Source: Roseicyclus persicicus
Lineage (GTDB): Bacteria > Pseudomonadota > Alphaproteobacteria > Rhodobacterales > Rhodobacteraceae
DNA: 64,000 bases
Assembly (NCBI RefSeq): GCF_012395815.1
Contig: NZ_JAAZQQ010000002.1
Span: forward strand, 434,001-498,000
Reading direction: 5' to 3'
Shown: positions 10,950-19,211 of the stretch, in pieces
How the letters are laid out: each line of letters opens with the position of its first letter
Position numbering within the stretch: position 1 is the stretch's first letter
Position numbers and translations under genes: made by a program
The notes under the pieces: model-generated
What the model was told of the DNA's origin: nothing
The model's input: the letters and a program-made list of their open reading frames with translations, nothing else
The model's database searches: none

Positions 10950-12230
10950 ATGGACTCCGCGCGGACGGACAGACGTGGCGATGAACTCCCGCCGGGGTCG
11001 ACCCTCTGTGGCGGGCAGTACACCATTGACGGCTACCTGAACGCCGGCGGCTTCGGCGTGACCTACCTGGCGGGCGACAGCCTCGGGCGCCGGGTGGTCA
11101 TCAAGGAATGCTTCCCCGGCGCCGTCTGCTACCGCGACAACGCGCAGGTCTGGCCCCGCTCGCGCAGCACCGGCGGCGAGTTCGAGACCATCCTCGGCCT
11201 GTTCGAGAAGGAGGCGCAGGCGCTGGCCGCCCTCCAGCACCCCTACATCGTCGGCGTGCACCAGTATTTCCGCGAGAACGGCACCGCCTACATGGCGATG
11301 GACTTCATCGAGGGGCGGACGCTGCTCGACGTGATCGAGACCGAGCCGCACCGCCTGACGCCGGACGAGGTCAAGCAGCTGCTGATCCGGCTCCTGCAGG
11401 CGGTGCAGTACATCCACGAGCACGACATCCTGCACCGGGACATCTCGCCCGACAACATCCTGATCGACCGCGACAACCTGCCGGTGCTGATCGACTTTGG
11501 CGCGGCGCGCGAGGGCGCGACCCGGGTCAGCCGGGTGCTGTCCAAGGTGCTGACCGTCAAGGACGGGTATTCGCCGCAGGAATTCTACCTCGCCGGCAGC
11601 GACCAGGTCCGCTCGAGCGACCTCTACGCGCTGGCGGCGACCTTCTACCACGTCGTTGGCGGCCAGCCGCCCCCCAGCAGCCACAAGCGCATGGCCGCCG
11701 TCGCCCGCAACCTCGCCGACCCGTTGCGGCCGCTCGAGGGGGTCGCGGGCTACGACGCGCATTTCATCGACGCGATCAACCAGTGCCTCAGCATCTTTCC
11801 GCAGCAGCGCCTGCCCAGCGCGGCGGCCTGGCGCGACGTGATCGACCGCGAGCGCCGCATCAAGCGGGCGCTGGAACAGGCCGCCCGCGACGAGGAGCTC
11901 GACCGCCGCATCCGCGCGCTGGTGGCCGAGTTCCGCCGCGACTTCGTGCCGGTCGCCCCGCCCGCGCCGGCACCCGCCGCCGCCCCGACCCCGCCCCCGA
12001 CGGCGCGCCCCGAGCCCGACACGGCAGGGCCAGCCGCCTCCGACGAGGTCGTCGCCATCGACCTGGCCGAAGCCGCGGCCGCGGAGGCGCCCGGCCCGGC
12101 GGACGACCCGGCCGACGCGCCCGCGGCGCCCGCCGCCCCGGCGAAACGGCCGCGCGGCCGGCTGTTCTCGCGGATCATCCGCCGCCGGACGGGCGCTGCC
12201 GCACAGGACACGAGCTGGAGGACCTCATGA
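10950..12230 (+). CDS. Eukaryotic-type Ser/Thr protein kinase
   Basis: 426 residues. The kinase domain (about 24-300) is complete: glycine-rich loop NAGGFGVTYLAG (31-42), catalytic Lys52 in VVIKE, catalytic loop HRDISPDN (162-169) and metal-binding DFG (182-184). A Pro/Ala-rich acidic tail from about 313 ends in a basic patch (RIIRRR). No membrane helix is seen, so it should be cytosolic, unlike PASTA-type kinases. The ATG at 10950 is preferred to one at 10866 because GAGGA lies just upstream and the upstream extension resembles non-coding sequence. It overlaps the FHA gene by ATGA and starts the eight-gene operon. Confidence 0.93.
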   Translation: MDSARTDRRGDELPPGSTLCGGQYTIDGYLNAGGFGVTYLAGDSLGRRVVIKECFPGAVCYRDNAQVWPRSRSTGGEFETILGLFEKEAQALAALQHPYIVGVHQYFRENGTAYMAMDFIEGRTLLDVIETEPHRLTPDEVKQLLIRLLQAVQYIHEHDILHRDISPDNILIDRDNLPVLIDFGAAREGATRVSRVLSKVLTVKDGYSPQEFYLAGSDQVRSSDLYALAATFYHVVGGQPPPSSHKRMAAVARNLADPLRPLEGVAGYDAHFIDAINQCLSIFPQQRLPSAAAWRDVIDRERRIKRALEQAARDEELDRRIRALVAEFRRDFVPVAPPAPAPAAAPTPPPTARPEPDTAGPAASDEVVAIDLAEAAAAEAPGPADDPADAPAAPAAPAKRPRGRLFSRIIRRRTGAAAQDTSWRTS

Positions 12231-13033
12231 ACATCAGGAGCCTGAGAAACGTCGCGGTGCGGATGCGGCCGCTGGGCTCGGCCGGTGGGGCCGAGCCGCC
12301 CTCGGACGATCCGCCCTGGGGGGACGAGCCGCCCCTGCCGGTCCGCTCGGCCGCGCCCGACCCGGCACCTGCGCCGGCCGCGCCGGAGATCCCCGCGCCC
12401 CCCGCCGCTGCCGCCACCCCGCCGCGCCGCAACATCTGGGATCTCGACCCCGAACCGCCCGCGGACCCCGCGCCGGCCCCCGCCCCCGTCCGCGCCGAGC
12501 CGCCGATGCCCCCCGAGGTGGCGCGCCCGCCCCGGCGCCCCGACCTCGGCGCAGCACCGGCGGCCCCCTCGGCCCGGGCCAAGACGCGCATCCTGGGCTT
12601 TCACGCGCAGGAGCTGGAGGCCGACGGCCTGGCCCCCGGCGCCGGGGCCGCGCCGCGCGGACCGTCCTTTCCGGCCGGCTGGCTGGTGGTGGTCGACGGG
12701 CCCGGCCGCGGCGCCTATTTCGCGGTCTCCACCCATGTCTCCAGCATCGGCCGCGGCGCCGACCAGGATGTGGCGCTGGATTTCGGCGACATGAGCATCT
12801 CGCGCAGCGGGCACGCCTCGGTGCTCTACGACGAGGAGCAGAACCGCTTCTTCATCGGGCACGGCAACAAGGCCAACGTGGTGCGCCGCAACGGTCAGCC
12901 GGTGCTCGCCACCGAGGAGATGCACGACGGCGACCTGATCCGCATCGGCAAGACCACGCTGCGCTTCGTGGCGCTGTGCGGCGCCGATTTCCGCTGGAAC
13001 ACCGGCGAGGGCGGGGAGGACGCGGATGCCTGA
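12227..13033 (+). CDS. FHA domain protein with Pro-rich linker
   Basis: 268 residues. Residues 20-115 are a low-complexity Pro/Ala linker containing an isolated NIWDLDPE motif (69-76); an isolated KTRILGF motif with Thr120 follows; the FHA domain spans about 152-250 with SIGRGADQ, DMSISRSGHA and NGQPV, which are the phosphothreonine-binding loops. FHA domains bind phosphothreonine peptides, so this is probably the substrate or adaptor of the kinase encoded just upstream. Thr120 is a plausible phosphoacceptor, by analogy with proteins whose FHA domain binds their own phosphorylated tail; that is inference. Overlaps both neighbours (4 and 8 bases). Confidence 0.9.
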   Translation: MNIRSLRNVAVRMRPLGSAGGAEPPSDDPPWGDEPPLPVRSAAPDPAPAPAAPEIPAPPAAAATPPRRNIWDLDPEPPADPAPAPAPVRAEPPMPPEVARPPRRPDLGAAPAAPSARAKTRILGFHAQELEADGLAPGAGAAPRGPSFPAGWLVVVDGPGRGAYFAVSTHVSSIGRGADQDVALDFGDMSISRSGHASVLYDEEQNRFFIGHGNKANVVRRNGQPVLATEEMHDGDLIRIGKTTLRFVALCGADFRWNTGEGGEDADA

Positions 13034-13925
13034 CAGCCTGTCGTTCCAGATCGACGCCGCGGCGGCGCTGGCCCAGGGCGCCCGCACCCGGCAGGAGGAC
13101 GCGCTGGCCGTCGCCTTTCCCGACGGCGCCGAGCGCGGCTTTGCCGTGCTGTCGGACGGCATGGGCGGCCACGCGGCGGGGGATCTCGCCAGCCGGATCA
13201 TCGTGGCCGAGGTCTTCGCCGAGCTGACCATCGGCCAGGCGGCGCGCGACGGCGCGGGCCCCGACATCCGCCGCCTGCTGCGCAAGGCGGTGGACCAGGC
13301 CAACGCCTCGCTGCAGGCCCATGCCGAGGCGCGCCGCGCCGACCAGGGCATGGGCGGCACGGTCATCGCCACCATCCTCGACGGCGACGGGCTGCACTGG
13401 ATCTCGGTGGGCGACTCGGTGCTCTACCTGTTCCGCGACAACGCGTTGAGCCGGCTGAACGCCGATCACTCGATGGCCCCGCAGATCGACCTGATGGCGG
13501 CCCAGGGCATGATCTCGGTCGAGCAGGCGCAGGCGCACCCGCAGCGCAACTGCCTGATCTCGGCCCTGACCGGCGACGAGATCGAGGCCATCGACTGCCC
13601 CGACCAGCCCCTGCGCCTGCGCGAGGGCGACGTGGTCATCCTCGCCTCGGACGGGCTGCAGTTCCTGCCCGACCCGATCATCGAGGCGGTGCTGCTGCGC
13701 GCCCGGCAGGAGGACAGCCGCACCATGGCGCAGGACCTGCTCGACGCGCTCGCCAGGATGGACGACCCAGAGCAGGACAACACCTCGATCGTGGTGCTGC
13801 GCGTGACCGCGCTGCGCCCGCGCGACCGCGCCGCCCGCGGCTGGATCGCGCGCAGCGGCCTGTTGCGCGCCTGGCGCCGCACGGTCGCGCCGCCGGTGCA
13901 CCTCAGCCAGCGGGGCCGCGCATGA
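13026..13925 (+). CDS. PP2C-family Ser/Thr protein phosphatase
   Basis: 299 residues. Core PP2C motifs are present: RQED near residues 22-25 in place of the common RxxNED, the metal-binding VLSDGMGGHAAGD (about 41-53), MGGTVIATIL, WISVGDSVLYLFRDN, ILASDGL and the final EQDNTSIVVLRV. The manganese/magnesium-dependent enzyme would reverse the action of the kinase two genes upstream, giving a writer/reader/eraser trio. The tail after about residue 265 is basic and ends without a membrane helix. It overlaps the FHA gene by 8 bases and the next gene by 4. Confidence 0.93.
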   Translation: MPDSLSFQIDAAAALAQGARTRQEDALAVAFPDGAERGFAVLSDGMGGHAAGDLASRIIVAEVFAELTIGQAARDGAGPDIRRLLRKAVDQANASLQAHAEARRADQGMGGTVIATILDGDGLHWISVGDSVLYLFRDNALSRLNADHSMAPQIDLMAAQGMISVEQAQAHPQRNCLISALTGDEIEAIDCPDQPLRLREGDVVILASDGLQFLPDPIIEAVLLRARQEDSRTMAQDLLDALARMDDPEQDNTSIVVLRVTALRPRDRAARGWIARSGLLRAWRRTVAPPVHLSQRGRA

Positions 13926-15115
13926 GGGACTGCGTCGAGGTCGACATCTCCGGGCCGGTGGCGCAGCTCGAGGGGCTGTTGGCCCGGGCGACGCTGTCGC
14001 CCAAGGACGCGGCGCGCTGCGCAAGGCTGGCCGAGGCGCTGCGCCGCCCGGCGCGGCTGTGCCTGCTCGGGCCCGACCCGGCGCTGCTGCACTGGCTGCT
14101 GGCGGGGCTGATCGGCGAGGCGCCGGTCGCGGCGGGGCAGATGCCGCCCGCGCTGGAGGTGTCGCACGGCGAGGCGCCCCGCACCGTCGCCACGCTGGGC
14201 GACGGCAGCACGCTGGCGCGGCCGGGGCTGCCGCAGCCCGACATGCTGGCCCGGGCGCCGGTGTTCCTGGCGGTCGAGGCGCCGGTGGCGCTCCTGCGGC
14301 GGATGTCGGTGCTGGCCGTCTGCCTCGACGTCGACCCGGCGCAGCATGTCCCCGCGCTCGCCTGGGCCGCCCGCCGGAGCGAGATCGCGCTGTGGTGCAC
14401 GGCCAGCTTCGGGCCGGCAGACGCGCGGATCTGGGCCGCGGCCCCGGACCGGTTGCACAACCACGCGGTCCTCGTTGAACGGGCGCCGGCCCCGACGCCG
14501 CCCCGCCTGCCCGCGGGGGCGGAGTTCGTGGCGCGCTTCGCCGCCGGGCCTGCGCCCGACGACGGCGCGGCCGCCCCCCGCGCCCTGGTCGCGGCGCTGC
14601 AGGAGCGGCTCCTGGCCGACATGGACGAGGCCCGCGCCGCCGACCTCGACGCGACGCGGCTGTTCCTGCACCGCCTCGGGTCCGCCGTGCCCGCGCCGGC
14701 GGCGGCCGTGGCGCCGCGCGCCGCGCCGGCCGCCGATGCGGCCCCCTCCGCCGGGATGCGCGCGCTGGTTTCCGAGCCGTTGCTCTACCTCACGCGGCGG
14801 GCGCGGGCGCTGGCGCAGGCGCTGGCCTGGCCGGACGAGGGCGGCGACTGGGCCGCCGAGGTGCTCGACGGCTGCTGCGAGACCGCCGAGGGGCTGCGCG
14901 ACCGGGCCGCCGACTGGCCCGAGGACGACCCCGCCGCCACCGCGCTGCGGCAGGCGATCGAGGAGATGGGCGACACCGCGCTGCTCCTGCAGATCGAGGG
15001 CGGTGCCGAGGCCGCCGAGACCGCGGCGGCGCTCATGGGACAGATGCGGTGGGAGCTTGAACAGGCGCTGGCGCGGTCGCCGGCGCCGGACCTTGAACCG
15101 GGAGTGGGCCGATGA
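13922..15115 (+). CDS. Degenerate dynamin-like GTPase (pseudo-GTPase)
   Basis: 397 residues of a protein not recognised by name. It shares landmarks with the small GTPase encoded at 17202. RLCLLGPDPALLHWLLAGLIG (from residue 45) aligns with that protein's P-loop region RIALLGEFSAGKSTLANALLG, but the GKS/T needed for nucleotide binding is gone. Further on, IALWCTASFGPADARIW (about 155-171) matches its IVLWCTPAS...AAIW segment. The G3 DxPG and G4 xRID motifs are not seen. I infer a catalytically dead paralogue serving as scaffold or partner. Ala/Pro-rich residues separate it from a C-terminal helical domain (about 270-397). ATGA overlaps on both sides. Confidence 0.65.
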   Translation: MRDCVEVDISGPVAQLEGLLARATLSPKDAARCARLAEALRRPARLCLLGPDPALLHWLLAGLIGEAPVAAGQMPPALEVSHGEAPRTVATLGDGSTLARPGLPQPDMLARAPVFLAVEAPVALLRRMSVLAVCLDVDPAQHVPALAWAARRSEIALWCTASFGPADARIWAAAPDRLHNHAVLVERAPAPTPPRLPAGAEFVARFAAGPAPDDGAAAPRALVAALQERLLADMDEARAADLDATRLFLHRLGSAVPAPAAAVAPRAAPAADAAPSAGMRALVSEPLLYLTRRARALAQALAWPDEGGDWAAEVLDGCCETAEGLRDRAADWPEDDPAATALRQAIEEMGDTALLLQIEGGAEAAETAAALMGQMRWELEQALARSPAPDLEPGVGR

Positions 15116-17205
15116 AACAGGACCGTCACGCCAAGACCCCGCTGGCGGGGGACCCCGTGGGCGACCCGCTGATCGCGGCGACCTACCGGGGGCTGGAGCC
15201 GCTGGTGACCGACATGGCCCGGCTGGACGAGGCGCTGCGCCTGCTGCTCGAGGTCGGCGACACCGCGCGCGAGCCCGAGATCCGCAAGCTGCGCCAGTCG
15301 CTGCGCGAGGTCGAGCCGACGGTGACGATGATCGGCCAGGTCAAGGCCGGCAAGACCACGCTGGTCGACGCCTTGATCGGGCGGCCGGGCCTGCTGCCCG
15401 CCGACATCAACCCCTGGACCTCGGTGGTGACGTCGCTGCACGTGTCGCCGCGGATCGCGCTCGACGCACAGAAGTCGCGGTTCCGTTTCTTCACCGACGA
15501 CGAATGGTCGAACCTGCTGCGCAAGGGCGGCCGCGTGGGCGAGCTTGCCAGCCGCGCCGGCGCCGACCAGGAGCTGGAGAAGGTGCGCCGCCAGCTCGAG
15601 GAGATGCGCGAGAAATCCCGCCAGCGCCTCGGCAGCCGCTTCGAGATGCTGCTGGGCCAGACCCACGACTACGGCTACGTCGATGCCGACCTGATCCAGC
15701 GCTACGTCTGCCTCGGCGACGAGCCGGACATCGCCGCCGCGGCCGGCGCCGACAGCGGGCAGGGCCGCTTTGCCGACATCACGCGGTCGGCCGACCTGTT
15801 CCTGTCGCAGCCCGCCCTGCCGATGCCGGTCTGCCTGCGCGACACCCCCGGCGTGAACGACACCTTCATGGTGCGCGAGCAGATCACGGTGAACGCGATC
15901 CGCGCCAGCCGGCTCTGCGTCGTGGTCCTGTCGGCGCACCAGGCGCTGTCGACGGTCGACCTCGCGCTGATCCGGCTGATCGCCAACATCCGGTCCCGCG
16001 AGGTGGTGCTGTTCGTGAACCGGATCGACGAGCTGTCCGACCCGGTCCGCGAGATCCCCGAGATCCGCGACAGCATCCGCGCCACCCTGCGGGCCCACAG
16101 CGGCCCGGCCGACGCCGAGATCCTGTTCGGCAGCGCGCACTGGGCGGTGCACGCGCTGCGCGGCGAGCTGGACCGGATCGGCGAACGCAGCGCACGCGCC
16201 CTGATCGCGCTGGCCGAGGACGAGGTGCGGCGCGGGATGGTCGAAACCGATGCCGCGGCGATGGTGTGGCACCTGTCGGGCCTGCCCGCGCTGGGCCGCG
16301 TGCTGGCCGACCGGATCACCCATGGCGAAGGCGCCGAGGTGGTGGACCGCATCGCGCGGCAGGGGCGCAACCTTGCGCAGGGCGTGTCGGCGGGCGTGCT
16401 GCTGGCGGCGCGCGGCGGCGGCGCCCGCGGGCCTGGCCGTCCGGTGGATGCCGCGGCGCTGGCGCACCGCTTCGACGCCCTGGCGCGCAAGGCCGAGGCG
16501 GATCTTGCGGGCCGTCTCGACGGGGTGCTCGCCGCCTTCGAGGGCCGGCTGCAGTCGTCGCGCGGCACCTTCGTGTCGCGCGCCACCGGGGCGCTGCTGC
16601 AGCATCTGGAGACCGAGGGCGACACCGAGGTCTGGACCTACGACCCCTCAGGGCTGCGGGCGCTGCTGCGGTCGGGCTACCACCTGTTCACCGGCAAGGC
16701 CACGCGCGCCGCCGAGGCGGTCTTCGCCGAGACCGCGCAGGCGGTGGCCGAGATCGGCGCCGCGGGGCTGGACCTCGAGCCGGGCACCTTCGCGCTCGAC
16801 CCGCCGTCGCTTCCCGAACCGCCGGTGCCGGTCATGCTGGGCCAGACCATCGCCCTCGATATCCGCGGCAACTGGTGGACGCGCTGGTGGCGCCGCCGGC
16901 GCAGCCCGCAGGCCTATGCCGAGGAGTTCGCCGCCCTGATCGACGCCGAGATCGCGCCGGTCATCGCCGAGCTGCAGACCGGCCATGCCGCCGCCCATGC
17001 CGACCGGCTCAAGGCGCTGCTGGGCGAGTTCCTGGCCGCGGAACGCGCCAGCCTGATGGACCTCGCGCAGCGCAGCGCCGGCGACCTCGCCGCGCTGCGC
17101 CGCCAGCAGGACGAGGACCGCCTGCGCATCGAGGCCCGGATCGACCGCGCCCGGCTGCTGCTTGCCGGGTTCCACAAGACCGAAGTGAAGGAGGCCGCAG
17201 AATGA
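15112..17205 (+). CDS. Dynamin-like large GTPase
   Basis: 697 residues. The GTPase domain has G1 GQVKAGKTT (75-83), a switch-I Thr candidate in NPWTSVV, G3 DTPGVND and G4 NRID. An unusually long insertion with charged helices (KVRRQLEEMREKSRQR) precedes G3. The C-terminal half is helical, and residues 584-597 form an aromatic/basic patch (NWWTRWWRRRR) that could contact membrane, as the paddle of bacterial dynamin-like proteins does. Those proteins polymerise on and remodel membranes; whether this one does so is not shown. It overlaps both neighbours by ATGA. Confidence 0.88.
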   Translation: MKQDRHAKTPLAGDPVGDPLIAATYRGLEPLVTDMARLDEALRLLLEVGDTAREPEIRKLRQSLREVEPTVTMIGQVKAGKTTLVDALIGRPGLLPADINPWTSVVTSLHVSPRIALDAQKSRFRFFTDDEWSNLLRKGGRVGELASRAGADQELEKVRRQLEEMREKSRQRLGSRFEMLLGQTHDYGYVDADLIQRYVCLGDEPDIAAAAGADSGQGRFADITRSADLFLSQPALPMPVCLRDTPGVNDTFMVREQITVNAIRASRLCVVVLSAHQALSTVDLALIRLIANIRSREVVLFVNRIDELSDPVREIPEIRDSIRATLRAHSGPADAEILFGSAHWAVHALRGELDRIGERSARALIALAEDEVRRGMVETDAAAMVWHLSGLPALGRVLADRITHGEGAEVVDRIARQGRNLAQGVSAGVLLAARGGGARGPGRPVDAAALAHRFDALARKAEADLAGRLDGVLAAFEGRLQSSRGTFVSRATGALLQHLETEGDTEVWTYDPSGLRALLRSGYHLFTGKATRAAEAVFAETAQAVAEIGAAGLDLEPGTFALDPPSLPEPPVPVMLGQTIALDIRGNWWTRWWRRRRSPQAYAEEFAALIDAEIAPVIAELQTGHAAAHADRLKALLGEFLAAERASLMDLAQRSAGDLAALRRQQDEDRLRIEARIDRARLLLAGFHKTEVKEAAE

Positions 17206-18098
17206 CGGACCAGGACGTGACGGCCCGCGCGGCCGCGAAACCGCGCATCGCGCTCCTCGGCGAGTTCAGCGCCGGCAAGAGCACGCTGGCCAACGCGCTG
17301 CTTGGGCAGGACAGCTCGCCCGTGCGCGTGACGGCGACCCAGGTGCCGCCGATCTGGTACAGCGCCGGGTCGGACGATCCCGTCCATGTCGGCATCGACG
17401 GCACCGAGACCGTCATCGACCACGACGAGATCAGCCGCATCCCGGTGCTGGGCACGCGGGCGGTGCGGGTGTTCCTCGAGGCCGATCTGCTGGACGCGGT
17501 GGACCTGATCGACATGCCCGGCAGCTCCGACCCGAACATGTCGTCCGACATCTGGGATGCGCTCCTGCCGCTGGCCGACATCGTGCTGTGGTGCACGCCC
17601 GCGTCGCAGGCCTGGCGCCAGTCCGAGGCCGCGATCTGGGAGGGCGTTCCCGAAGAGCTGCAGGCGCGCAGCCTGCTGCTGCTCACGCGTATCGACACGG
17701 TGCGCAACGAGGTCGACCGCGCCCGGCTGCTGGCCCGGGTCCGCCGCGAGACCGCGGGCCAGTTCCGCGCCGTGCTGCCGGTGTCGCCGCTCCTTGCGAT
17801 GGAGGCGGGCGACGACGCCGACCTGCAACGCGCCTCGGGCCTGCCGCGCCTTATGGACGTGCTGGCCGAGGTGGTCGCCGATCTGCGCGCCCCCGCCCGC
17901 CGCACCGCCGACATCGCCGCCGACCTGCGCCGGGCCCGCGCCGGGGACAGCGGCGCGCCCGGGCCGGACGGGGCCGGGGACGGGGCAGGGGCCGAGCCTC
18001 AGGTGCCGCAGGGTGCCCCGTCGGGCGTGATGCCCCGCCGGATCCGTCCCGCGGGCGGGGCCGCGCGCCCGGGCCGCCCGCGCGAAGCGCTGATCTGA
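17202..18098 (+). CDS. Small dynamin-family GTPase
   Basis: 298 residues: a single G domain with intact G1 GEFSAGKST (20-28), a candidate switch-I Thr in VTATQVPP, G3 DMPG (104-107) and G4 TRID (162-165). The hallmark LWCTPASQAW (129-138) follows G3. GEFSAGKST is typical of dynamin-superfamily proteins rather than Era/Ras types. The last 60 residues are Gly/Pro/Arg-rich and probably disordered. It lacks the large helical stalk of the preceding gene's product, so the two may form a hetero-oligomer. It ends 37 bases before the next gene. Confidence 0.88.
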   Translation: MTDQDVTARAAAKPRIALLGEFSAGKSTLANALLGQDSSPVRVTATQVPPIWYSAGSDDPVHVGIDGTETVIDHDEISRIPVLGTRAVRVFLEADLLDAVDLIDMPGSSDPNMSSDIWDALLPLADIVLWCTPASQAWRQSEAAIWEGVPEELQARSLLLLTRIDTVRNEVDRARLLARVRRETAGQFRAVLPVSPLLAMEAGDDADLQRASGLPRLMDVLAEVVADLRAPARRTADIAADLRRARAGDSGAPGPDGAGDGAGAEPQVPQGAPSGVMPRRIRPAGGAARPGRPREALI

Positions 18099-18135
18099 CC
18101 GGCGCCGAGACCCCCATGACACCGGAGCGCCCCGC

Positions 18136-18501
18136 ATGACCCCCGACACCCTCGCCCGTCTCCGCCGCGCGGTGCCGGCCTGCTCGCTGGTGGTCTGGGC
18201 CGACATCGACAAGGGCACGGTGCTGGCCGCCGACGGCGACCTGGCCTATCCGCAGGAACATCTCGACGCGCTGGGGGCCTGCGCGGCGCAACTGCTGGAG
18301 GTCGCCGCCCCGGGCTCCGGCCGTCAGCCCGACAGCGCGCTGTTCGCCGGGCCGACCGGCTGCCGGGTGTTCTTCCGGGTGCCCGGGGCGCCGGCCGAGG
18401 CGATCTGCTGTCTCGGCGGGCCGGTCGCGGACCCCCCGGCGCTGCTCGACCGGCTCCGCGGGGCGCTTGCCGCCGCGCCGCACCCGGAGGCCGCGGCATG
18501 A
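18136..18501 (+). CDS. Roadblock/LC7-like small protein (tentative)
   Basis: 121 residues. The pattern VPACSLVVWADIDKGTVLAADG near the N-terminus, followed by a helix, a central hydrophobic strand and CRVFFRVPGAPAEAICCLGG, resembles roadblock/LC7 folds, which pair with small GTPases as regulators (for example MglB with MglA). No catalytic motif is visible. The position immediately after two GTPase genes supports that reading, but the match is by shape only. It overlaps the next gene by ATGA. Confidence 0.5.
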   Translation: MTPDTLARLRRAVPACSLVVWADIDKGTVLAADGDLAYPQEHLDALGACAAQLLEVAAPGSGRQPDSALFAGPTGCRVFFRVPGAPAEAICCLGGPVADPPALLDRLRGALAAAPHPEAAA

Positions 18502-19211
18502 ACCCGCGCGGCGCGGTGCGCGCGCGGCTGATCCAGGCGGCCCTCGACGGCCCGCCGCCGCCGATCCCGGCAACGCCGGACGACGCGCTGCGGGCGGTGC
18601 TCGACCGGGTCGACACGACGGTGCTGGCGCGGCGGCTGACGATCCGCGGCGCGGGCGGCCGGGCCATCGCCCTTGACGCGGCGAATCGGCGTCTGCTGTC
18701 GCTTGCGGGGGATGCGGGCGGCGGCGCGCTCGGCCCCGGCGACGCGGCGGCGGTGGCGGCGGCCCTGCGCAGTGCGCTGGCCGGGGGCGGGCCGGTGACG
18801 GTCCGGTCCGGCCCGGCCGCACCGGGCGCGGGGGCGGGGCAGGTGGGCCTGACGCCGGCGGCCGTCCTGTCCGCTGCGGGCCTGGCCCCCCTTCCGGCCG
18901 CGGCCGCCTGCGCGCCGTCGCCCGAGGCCCTGTGCACGGTCCGCCTTGGCGAAGGCGCGCCCGATCCCGCCGTGCCGGAGGACGCGGAGACCGCCGAGCT
19001 GGCCGACTGGGCGGCCGGGGCGCTGGACCAGCTCCTGTCCGACACCTTCCCGCTGGCCGCGAGCCTCGAGACGGAGGGCACGCTGTGGCTCGACTACGGC
19101 GCGGAGGGGCGCATCCGCATCGCGGGCGACCTGGGCGGTTTCGACGTCAGCGTCCTTGGCCCCGACCCGGACGCGCCCCGGCCCCGGTCCGGCGGCGCGG
19201 CCTGCGGGTGA
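18498..19211 (+). CDS. Hypothetical protein, last gene of kinase/dynamin operon
   Basis: 237 residues, family not recognised. No signal peptide or membrane helix. It seems to have an N-terminal alpha/beta part (TIRGAGGRAIALDAANRRLLSL, about residues 46-67), an Ala/Gly-rich middle and a C-terminal acidic part with WLDYGAEGRIRIAGDLGGF. Codon use is as GC-biased as its neighbours and it overlaps the roadblock-like gene by ATGA, so it is very probably a real member of the operon. It ends 18 bases before the convergent metal ATPase gene. Confidence 0.75.
   Translation: MNPRGAVRARLIQAALDGPPPPIPATPDDALRAVLDRVDTTVLARRLTIRGAGGRAIALDAANRRLLSLAGDAGGGALGPGDAAAVAAALRSALAGGGPVTVRSGPAAPGAGAGQVGLTPAAVLSAAGLAPLPAAAACAPSPEALCTVRLGEGAPDPAVPEDAETAELADWAAGALDQLLSDTFPLAASLETEGTLWLDYGAEGRIRIAGDLGGFDVSVLGPDPDAPRPRSGGAACG

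Follow-up and report, generated by a model that had tools for sequence, protein, structure and literature searches.

The locus described here is an eight-gene operon (genes A to H, 10950-19211, + strand) in a 64,000-nucleotide stretch of the Roseicyclus persicicus genome, hereafter the window. It joins a Ser/Thr kinase (A), an FHA protein (B) and a PP2C phosphatase (C) to a dynamin-like GTPase pair (E and F), a third G-domain protein (D), a roadblock-like protein (G) and a further conserved protein (H). Kinase, FHA protein and phosphatase also stand together in the threonine phosphorylation module of type VI secretion systems (T6SS), as PpkA, Fha and PppA, and a roadblock protein is encoded next to a GTPase both in MglA/MglB and in the Streptomyces conservon, which consists of histidine-kinase-like, roadblock, DUF742 and Ras-like GTPase genes. 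In the actinobacterial protein OdhI/GarA, the FHA domain closes on the protein's own phosphothreonine. What switches bacterial dynamins, and to what purpose, is a largely open question. According to PMC8546545, OdhI/GarA carries a conserved phosphorylatable ETTS motif, the target of PknG, in its N-terminal region outside the FHA domain, and the binding lipoprotein GlnH and the membrane protein GlnX are encoded with pknG. Bacterial dynamin-like genes mostly stand in side-by-side pairs, and the Campylobacter jejuni proteins Cj-DLP1 and Cj-DLP2 make up a heterotypic complex of 2:2 composition, which hydrolyses GTP once assembled and both binds lipid and tethers membranes; the passages on them in PMC6104087 mention no kinase, FHA protein, phosphatase, roadblock protein or third G domain.

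A sequence-only reading of the window had described eight co-directional genes of this composition, among them two GTPases with intact motifs, a GTPase-fold protein lacking the P-loop and a roadblock-like protein, and knew of no described system with this set. Open reading frames and Pfam matches confirm the composition: the genes overlap or are closely spaced, E and F both score above the Dynamin_N cut-off and both contain a Walker A motif, and the protein without a P-loop proves to be D, whose relatives hold an intact Walker A at the aligned place. Literature searches likewise found no published description of such an operon, most subscription papers lying beyond their reach. Across the whole genome, the models PF00069, PF00498 and PF13672 (for phosphatases, the statement concerns this model only) each match once, and the matches are A, B and C: all that the genome has for these three models (Hanks kinase, FHA, PP2C_2) is wired into one dynamin-roadblock operon.

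We examined gene order in 75 E loci from 69 genomes, taken from a survey of the family, with genes assigned by profiles. Left out of this set were the window's own genome, the contig fragments G022 and G159, second matches within a fetched region (G612, G153), and G147, G465:C16 and weaker, mostly E'-type rows. A synteny search showing the genes to be rare neighbours had been named beforehand as the result that would speak against the operon; the outcome was the opposite, the row being conserved in many marine relatives. E and F score in all 75 loci and lie adjacent in 71. A, B, C and D were detected in 51, 53, 54 and 54 loci respectively, a roadblock protein in 67, and H or its relative h4 in 56. 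The window's order of all eight genes is kept in 34 of the 75 (h4 counted as H, one split E included), several of the remainder being cut by contig ends or having no detected G or H. On the Leisingera aquaemixtae plasmid NZ_CP041163, this order reads kinase, FHA, PP2C, hypothetical, two dynamin-family proteins and two hypotheticals. Ruegeria has the order c5-E-F-g6-h4-E'-F'-kinase-FHA-PP2C, followed by two LysM/binding-protein genes, and other loci are reduced to E-F, with or without a detected roadblock gene, or to E-F-E'-F'. Because E-F-roadblock variants occur without the kinase cassette, the core of the system is the E-F pair, usually with a roadblock protein, and the phospho-cassette A-B-C is a module that joins it.

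The core resembles the Campylobacter pair. Among solved structures, the E profile matched 5owv_A (1.1e-11) and the Nostoc BDLP structure 2j68 (3.2e-9), the E sequence alone gave a 5owv chain as its second match, and the best match of F in the PDB was 5owv_C (3.6e-7); judging by chain length, these chains are probably Cj-DLP1 (5owv_A) and Cj-DLP2 (5owv_C). As in that pair, two dynamin-type genes are adjacent, and both have the intact P-loops by which we recognised a dynamin-like pair; F, however, is far shorter than the chain it matched (298 versus 614 residues). Walker A is present in 77 of 79 E frames, the two misses being short partial frames, and in 78 of 78 F frames. Some 350 residues follow the G domain in E, and F has only a short low-complexity tail. 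A Trp-rich basic motif in the long C-terminal part of E, with W588, W589 and W592 invariant in a 21-sequence alignment (A1), may act at the membrane; WWxxW occurs in 57 of the 75 E proteins. The tail of F (window:17202-18098) contains PRR(I/V/L) in 37 of 75 F proteins compared with 50 of 1500 shuffles, which we do not use as evidence. LeoABC also comprises bacterial dynamin-like GTPases, but F reached only 14.3 bits with the NCBIfam LeoA model, far below its cut-off of 325, and E was not listed; we therefore rejected LeoABC membership, and we know of no kinase cassette in that system.

D is, as judged by profile comparison, a third GTPase that has repeatedly lost its P-loop. Its profile matched F', the third GTPase of Ruegeria, at 2.6e-45 over 398 columns, and F at 2.8e-27. 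With rows scored on the E tree, Walker A is kept in 36 of 54 D proteins and lost in 18, the window's among them; this second number is approximate, since rows labelled absent include odd or extended frames, and L164, a cut locus, was excluded from the count. The fewest changes that explain the pattern on a quick E tree are six. Within the window's clade of 12 rows (support 87, not starred) the motif is missing in all 11 scored D proteins, and intermediate forms of the P-loop (GLPDAGKP, GLPRAGKA, GPKGAGKR) are found as well. This repeated decay would present a series from GTPase to pseudo-GTPase within one operon.

D, G and H had no family match up to an E-value of 0.1 in Pfam, NCBIfam or PADLOC. 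G nevertheless has the alpha-beta-beta-alpha-beta-beta-beta-alpha arrangement of roadblock/LC7 proteins, and its fold matched those of MglB and of Streptomyces roadblock proteins, in agreement with the sequence-only reading. The roadblock model PF03259 found no match in G up to E 0.1, and the rb4 relative reached 0.034, with 14.3 bits against 23. Profile comparisons did not connect G with the rb4 roadblocks by sequence (probabilities of 3.2 and 6.2), although g6 gave 98.0 with G and 67 with rb4. In locus L200, F runs in frame into an rb4-group roadblock protein, the latter part being 72% identical to a stand-alone rb4 protein, and this fusion suggests direct contact between F and the roadblock protein (the 205.8-bit rb4 match of L200 holds by construction, L200 being one of the seven profile rows, and is not relied on). 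The H family profile matched the Ruegeria h4 family with a probability of 98.3 and had no credible relative among solved structures (best 0.82). The operon differs from MglA/MglB and the conservon in that its GTPase matches Dynamin_N and not a Ras-like family. Conservon membership was rejected, since none of the eight proteins had a histidine kinase or DUF742 match in Pfam or NCBIfam. As a separate observation, the C-terminal part of F' in L192 and L193 (L192:4425-5738) resembles a roadblock domain when read by eye, and the protein would then have a Rag-like layout of G domain plus roadblock; Pfam saw no roadblock domain in the L192 protein.

Turning to the cassette, of 53 B proteins, all counted at E loci, 51 have KTR(L/I/V/M)(L/I)GF or something close to it in the linker before the FHA domain, compared with 0 of 1060 shuffles. 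The exceptions are L174 and L141, the latter truncated by the end of its contig. The window's version is KTRILGF, with Thr120 as the candidate phospho-acceptor. B is like OdhI/GarA in being an FHA protein that accompanies a kinase and has a conserved Thr motif before its FHA domain. It differs in having KTR(L/I)LGF instead of ETTS, and in being linked to dynamin-like GTPases, not to 2-oxoglutarate dehydrogenase. At 32.4 bits, B does not reach the NCBIfam OdhI cut-off of 200, and we rejected OdhI membership; the parallel is one of logic, not of membership. Read by eye, kinase A has the HRD and DFG motifs and a basic C-terminal tail, and C scored 138.4 bits with the NCBIfam Stp1/IreP model, below the cut-off of 230.

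Hydropathy gives no transmembrane segment in the window's kinase. Its basic tail, KRPRGRLFSRIIRRRTG, has counterparts in many relatives (read by eye) and may, at a guess, bind the membrane. Nine kinases of other loci do have a transmembrane segment with a long part after it (L132, L139, L151, L155, L160, L162, L175, L183 and L189, by hydropathy); this set was read by eye, and a script at a cut-off of 2.0 also returned nine, with L163 replacing L189 (1.95). Beside the operon of six of these nine lie genes for PBP/OmpA plus PilJ-type proteins or for LysM/binding proteins: a PBP/OmpA protein and a PilJ-type protein follow it in L139, L151, L155 and L189, a LysM/binding-protein pair follows it in L162, and directly behind C in L175 begins a LysM-type protein that has a signal peptide (read by eye). 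By analogy, the pairing of membrane kinase and binding-type periplasmic protein in these relatives recalls GlnH-GlnX-PknG-OdhI. The Ruegeria LysM/binding protein was not found in the window's own genome, a weak negative because the search had no positive control.

The model that we consider most likely, giving its chain as a whole an even chance, is that of a GTPase machine at the inner membrane, built of dynamin and roadblock parts and switched by phosphorylation. E, with its long C-terminal part and Trp-rich motif, and F, which is mostly G domain, would form a heterotypic dynamin-like pair, with D as a third G-domain subunit that in the window is presumably nucleotide-dead. G would control or dock F as MglB does MglA, and H, usually found together with G, may be a further partner. 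Kinase A, held at the membrane perhaps by its tail and in relatives by the transmembrane segment, often near periplasmic-protein genes, would phosphorylate B at Thr120; B would then bind this phosphothreonine with its own FHA domain and release a GTPase target, or instead bind it, as the OdhI/GarA analogy suggests. C would reset the switch, so that A writes, B switches and C erases. As the predicted output, the pair would assemble on the cytoplasmic side of the envelope, where it could tether, remodel or repair membrane. Of the sequence-only reading, a conserved operon of phospho-signalling and dynamin-like genes outside T6SS has held up; membrane remodelling is a role that we infer, and its suggested purposes (envelope repair, defence or vesicle formation) stay proposals. 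More tentatively, and at somewhat less than an even chance, the operon may represent a new class of signal-driven membrane machine, in which a Ser/Thr kinase sensing the periplasm or membrane flips a KTRLLGF-FHA switch that gates the heterotypic pair via a roadblock protein and a third G-domain subunit, P-loop-less in several lineages. We know of no earlier case of threonine phosphorylation controlling a bacterial dynamin, and this would be the first if true.

Several observations weigh against this model. The cassette is missing from some loci (the 51 of 75 with A, some loci being cut by contig ends), and the core can therefore do without phosphorylation. A full dynamin stalk would not fit into the length of F, stalk and tip are putative features read from sequence, and 18 of the 75 E proteins have no WWxxW. 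By sequence, the G profile reaches roadblock proteins at noise level only (best 0.19). The association of membrane kinases with periplasmic proteins also has exceptions: L160 has a transmembrane kinase and no periplasmic-type neighbour within its stretch (the stretches of L132 and L183 are cut), L163 and L174, whose kinase frames contain a hydrophobic stretch close to their end, lack neighbours of this type too, and L138 has a kinase without a transmembrane segment, its LysM/binding-protein genes lying at least 2.4 kb away beside a stray PP2C gene.

Another way to view the locus is as a polarity or motility switch, in which the roadblock-GTPase pair marks a pole or flagellar site in the manner of MglA/MglB, with the dynamin pair as its effector. 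The MglB-like fold of G and the F-roadblock fusion fit this view, as does a by-eye reading of L053:15430-19188 (Sulfitobacter algicola), where E-F-g6-h4 lies directly upstream of motB, flgE and flgK; the same clusters stand beside E-F-g6-h4 in L048 (Pseudaestuariivita). However, these flagellar neighbours were noticed at L048 and L053 only, without a systematic search, none lies next to the window's operon, and F matches Dynamin_N, not a Ras-like family. We consider this explanation unlikely.

The distribution of the operon bears on a second alternative, anti-phage defence, by which a kinase-triggered dynamin system would act on the membrane during infection. With one genome sampled per genus of the family, profile A1 found E in 77 of 295. 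In the order, 72 of 196 genomes gave a match. The class yielded 2 of 385, which both belong to the family, and the phylum 9 of 398, of which eight are members of the family and the ninth comes from another family of the class. This outsider has a weaker, E'-like match in an E'/F-like pair, within 20 kb of which the remaining profiles had no match. The named relatives are Rhodobacterales (Roseibacterium/Roseicyclus, Roseovarius, Ruegeria, Leisingera and others). A profile search gave no E match in G1112, a genome of the window's own genus, and E relatives lie on 18 plasmid records, some of them from cultured Leisingera and Ruegeria; all of these plasmids are typed non-mobilizable, and several hundred kilobases is the length of some. 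The operon thus looks accessory. Such patchiness is what defence would lead one to expect, and the kinase resembles the PADLOC models mad6 (155 bits) and PD-T4-6 (150 bits), with E and F touching LeoA/LeoBC. The kinase matches, however, cover mainly the kinase domain, and those to LeoA/LeoBC are weak, at 24-31 bits for the better model of each. The genes immediately flanking the window's operon (ABC transporter, P-type ATPase), the only neighbourhood scanned for this purpose, are not defence genes, and nutrient or envelope sensing is the better fit for a cassette that has periplasmic binding-type proteins beside it. E had no match among phage records at 1e-5, and a phage origin of the operon was rejected. 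Defence is thus distinctly unlikely. With E in about a quarter of the family's genomes and cultured plasmid-bearing relatives to hand, the control of a dynamin by the kinase, as our preferred model has it, can be tested with one deletion and one predicted phosphosite.

Less probable still is a metabolic phospho-switch of the PknG-OdhI kind, in which the target of B is an enzyme not encoded in the operon, and the GTPases act downstream or are incidental. The OdhI model does match B at 6.9e-8, and transmembrane kinases are often beside periplasmic-protein genes. The score is well short of the family's cut-off, however, and the ETTS motif is replaced; B stands at 53 of the 75 E loci, mostly within one gene run that includes the GTPases, and E-F with a roadblock also occurs without it. 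A T6SS remnant or accessory block, suggested by the PpkA/Fha/PppA-like trio and by VipB in 3 of 12 relatives' genomes, can be practically dismissed: VipB had no match in the other 9, the window's own genome (0/1) had no match to the sheath protein VipB/TssC (PF05943) while an Escherichia coli positive control did, and B scored 14.6 bits with the T6SS FHA (TagH) model against a cut-off of 120.25, so that we rejected this reading for the genome, in searches that did not extend to other secretion systems or gas-vesicle genes.

The features of the locus are collected in Table 1. Upstream lie an FtsX-type permease and its ABC ATPase, and downstream a P-type ATPase. All of these are on the - strand, and the eight-gene block therefore looks like a self-contained unit.

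Table 1. Features of the operon, in window positions.
Feature	Position	Strand	Description
A	10950..12230	+	Hanks-type Ser/Thr kinase, 426 aa; Pfam Pkinase 6.4e-31
B	12227..13033	+	FHA protein, 268 aa; FHA 1.7e-7
Thr120 codon of B	12584..12586	+	Proposed phospho-acceptor; phosphorylation predicted
C	13026..13925	+	PP2C phosphatase, 299 aa; PP2C_2 7.6e-13
D	13922..15115	+	Pseudo-GTPase, 397 aa; GPDPALLH at residues 50-57, the Walker A position of relatives
E	15112..17205	+	Large dynamin-like GTPase, 697 aa; Dynamin_N 1.1e-10; Walker A 75-82; WWTRWW from 588
F	17202..18098	+	Small dynamin-type GTPase, 298 aa; Dynamin_N 3.6e-12; Walker A 20-27; low-complexity tail
G	18136..18501	+	Roadblock/LC7 fold protein, 121 aa
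H	18498..19211	+	Conserved protein without family match, 237 aa

Some variant loci contain further genes. The short protein c5 (L060:9509-9985) precedes E in 47 of 80 named loci, mostly of Ruegeria and Aliiroseovarius; it had no Pfam match, and the idea that it is a roadblock relative was rejected when profile comparison gave no link. In L131, the kinase has just upstream of it, on the other strand, a second frame matching the FHA family of B. A plasmid of Rhodobacter sp. CZR27 (L203:817-11267) has four dynamin-family genes followed by a histidine kinase, a DUF6781 and an AarF/UbiB-type kinase gene. L106-L108 have triple E-F tandems, and in L107 (14676-18436) the tandem is followed by an ABC-type ATPase and a Fer2-FAD-NAD-globin fusion protein, the cluster of which is also found in L106 and L108; a link of this fusion protein to nitrosative or oxygen stress is possible.

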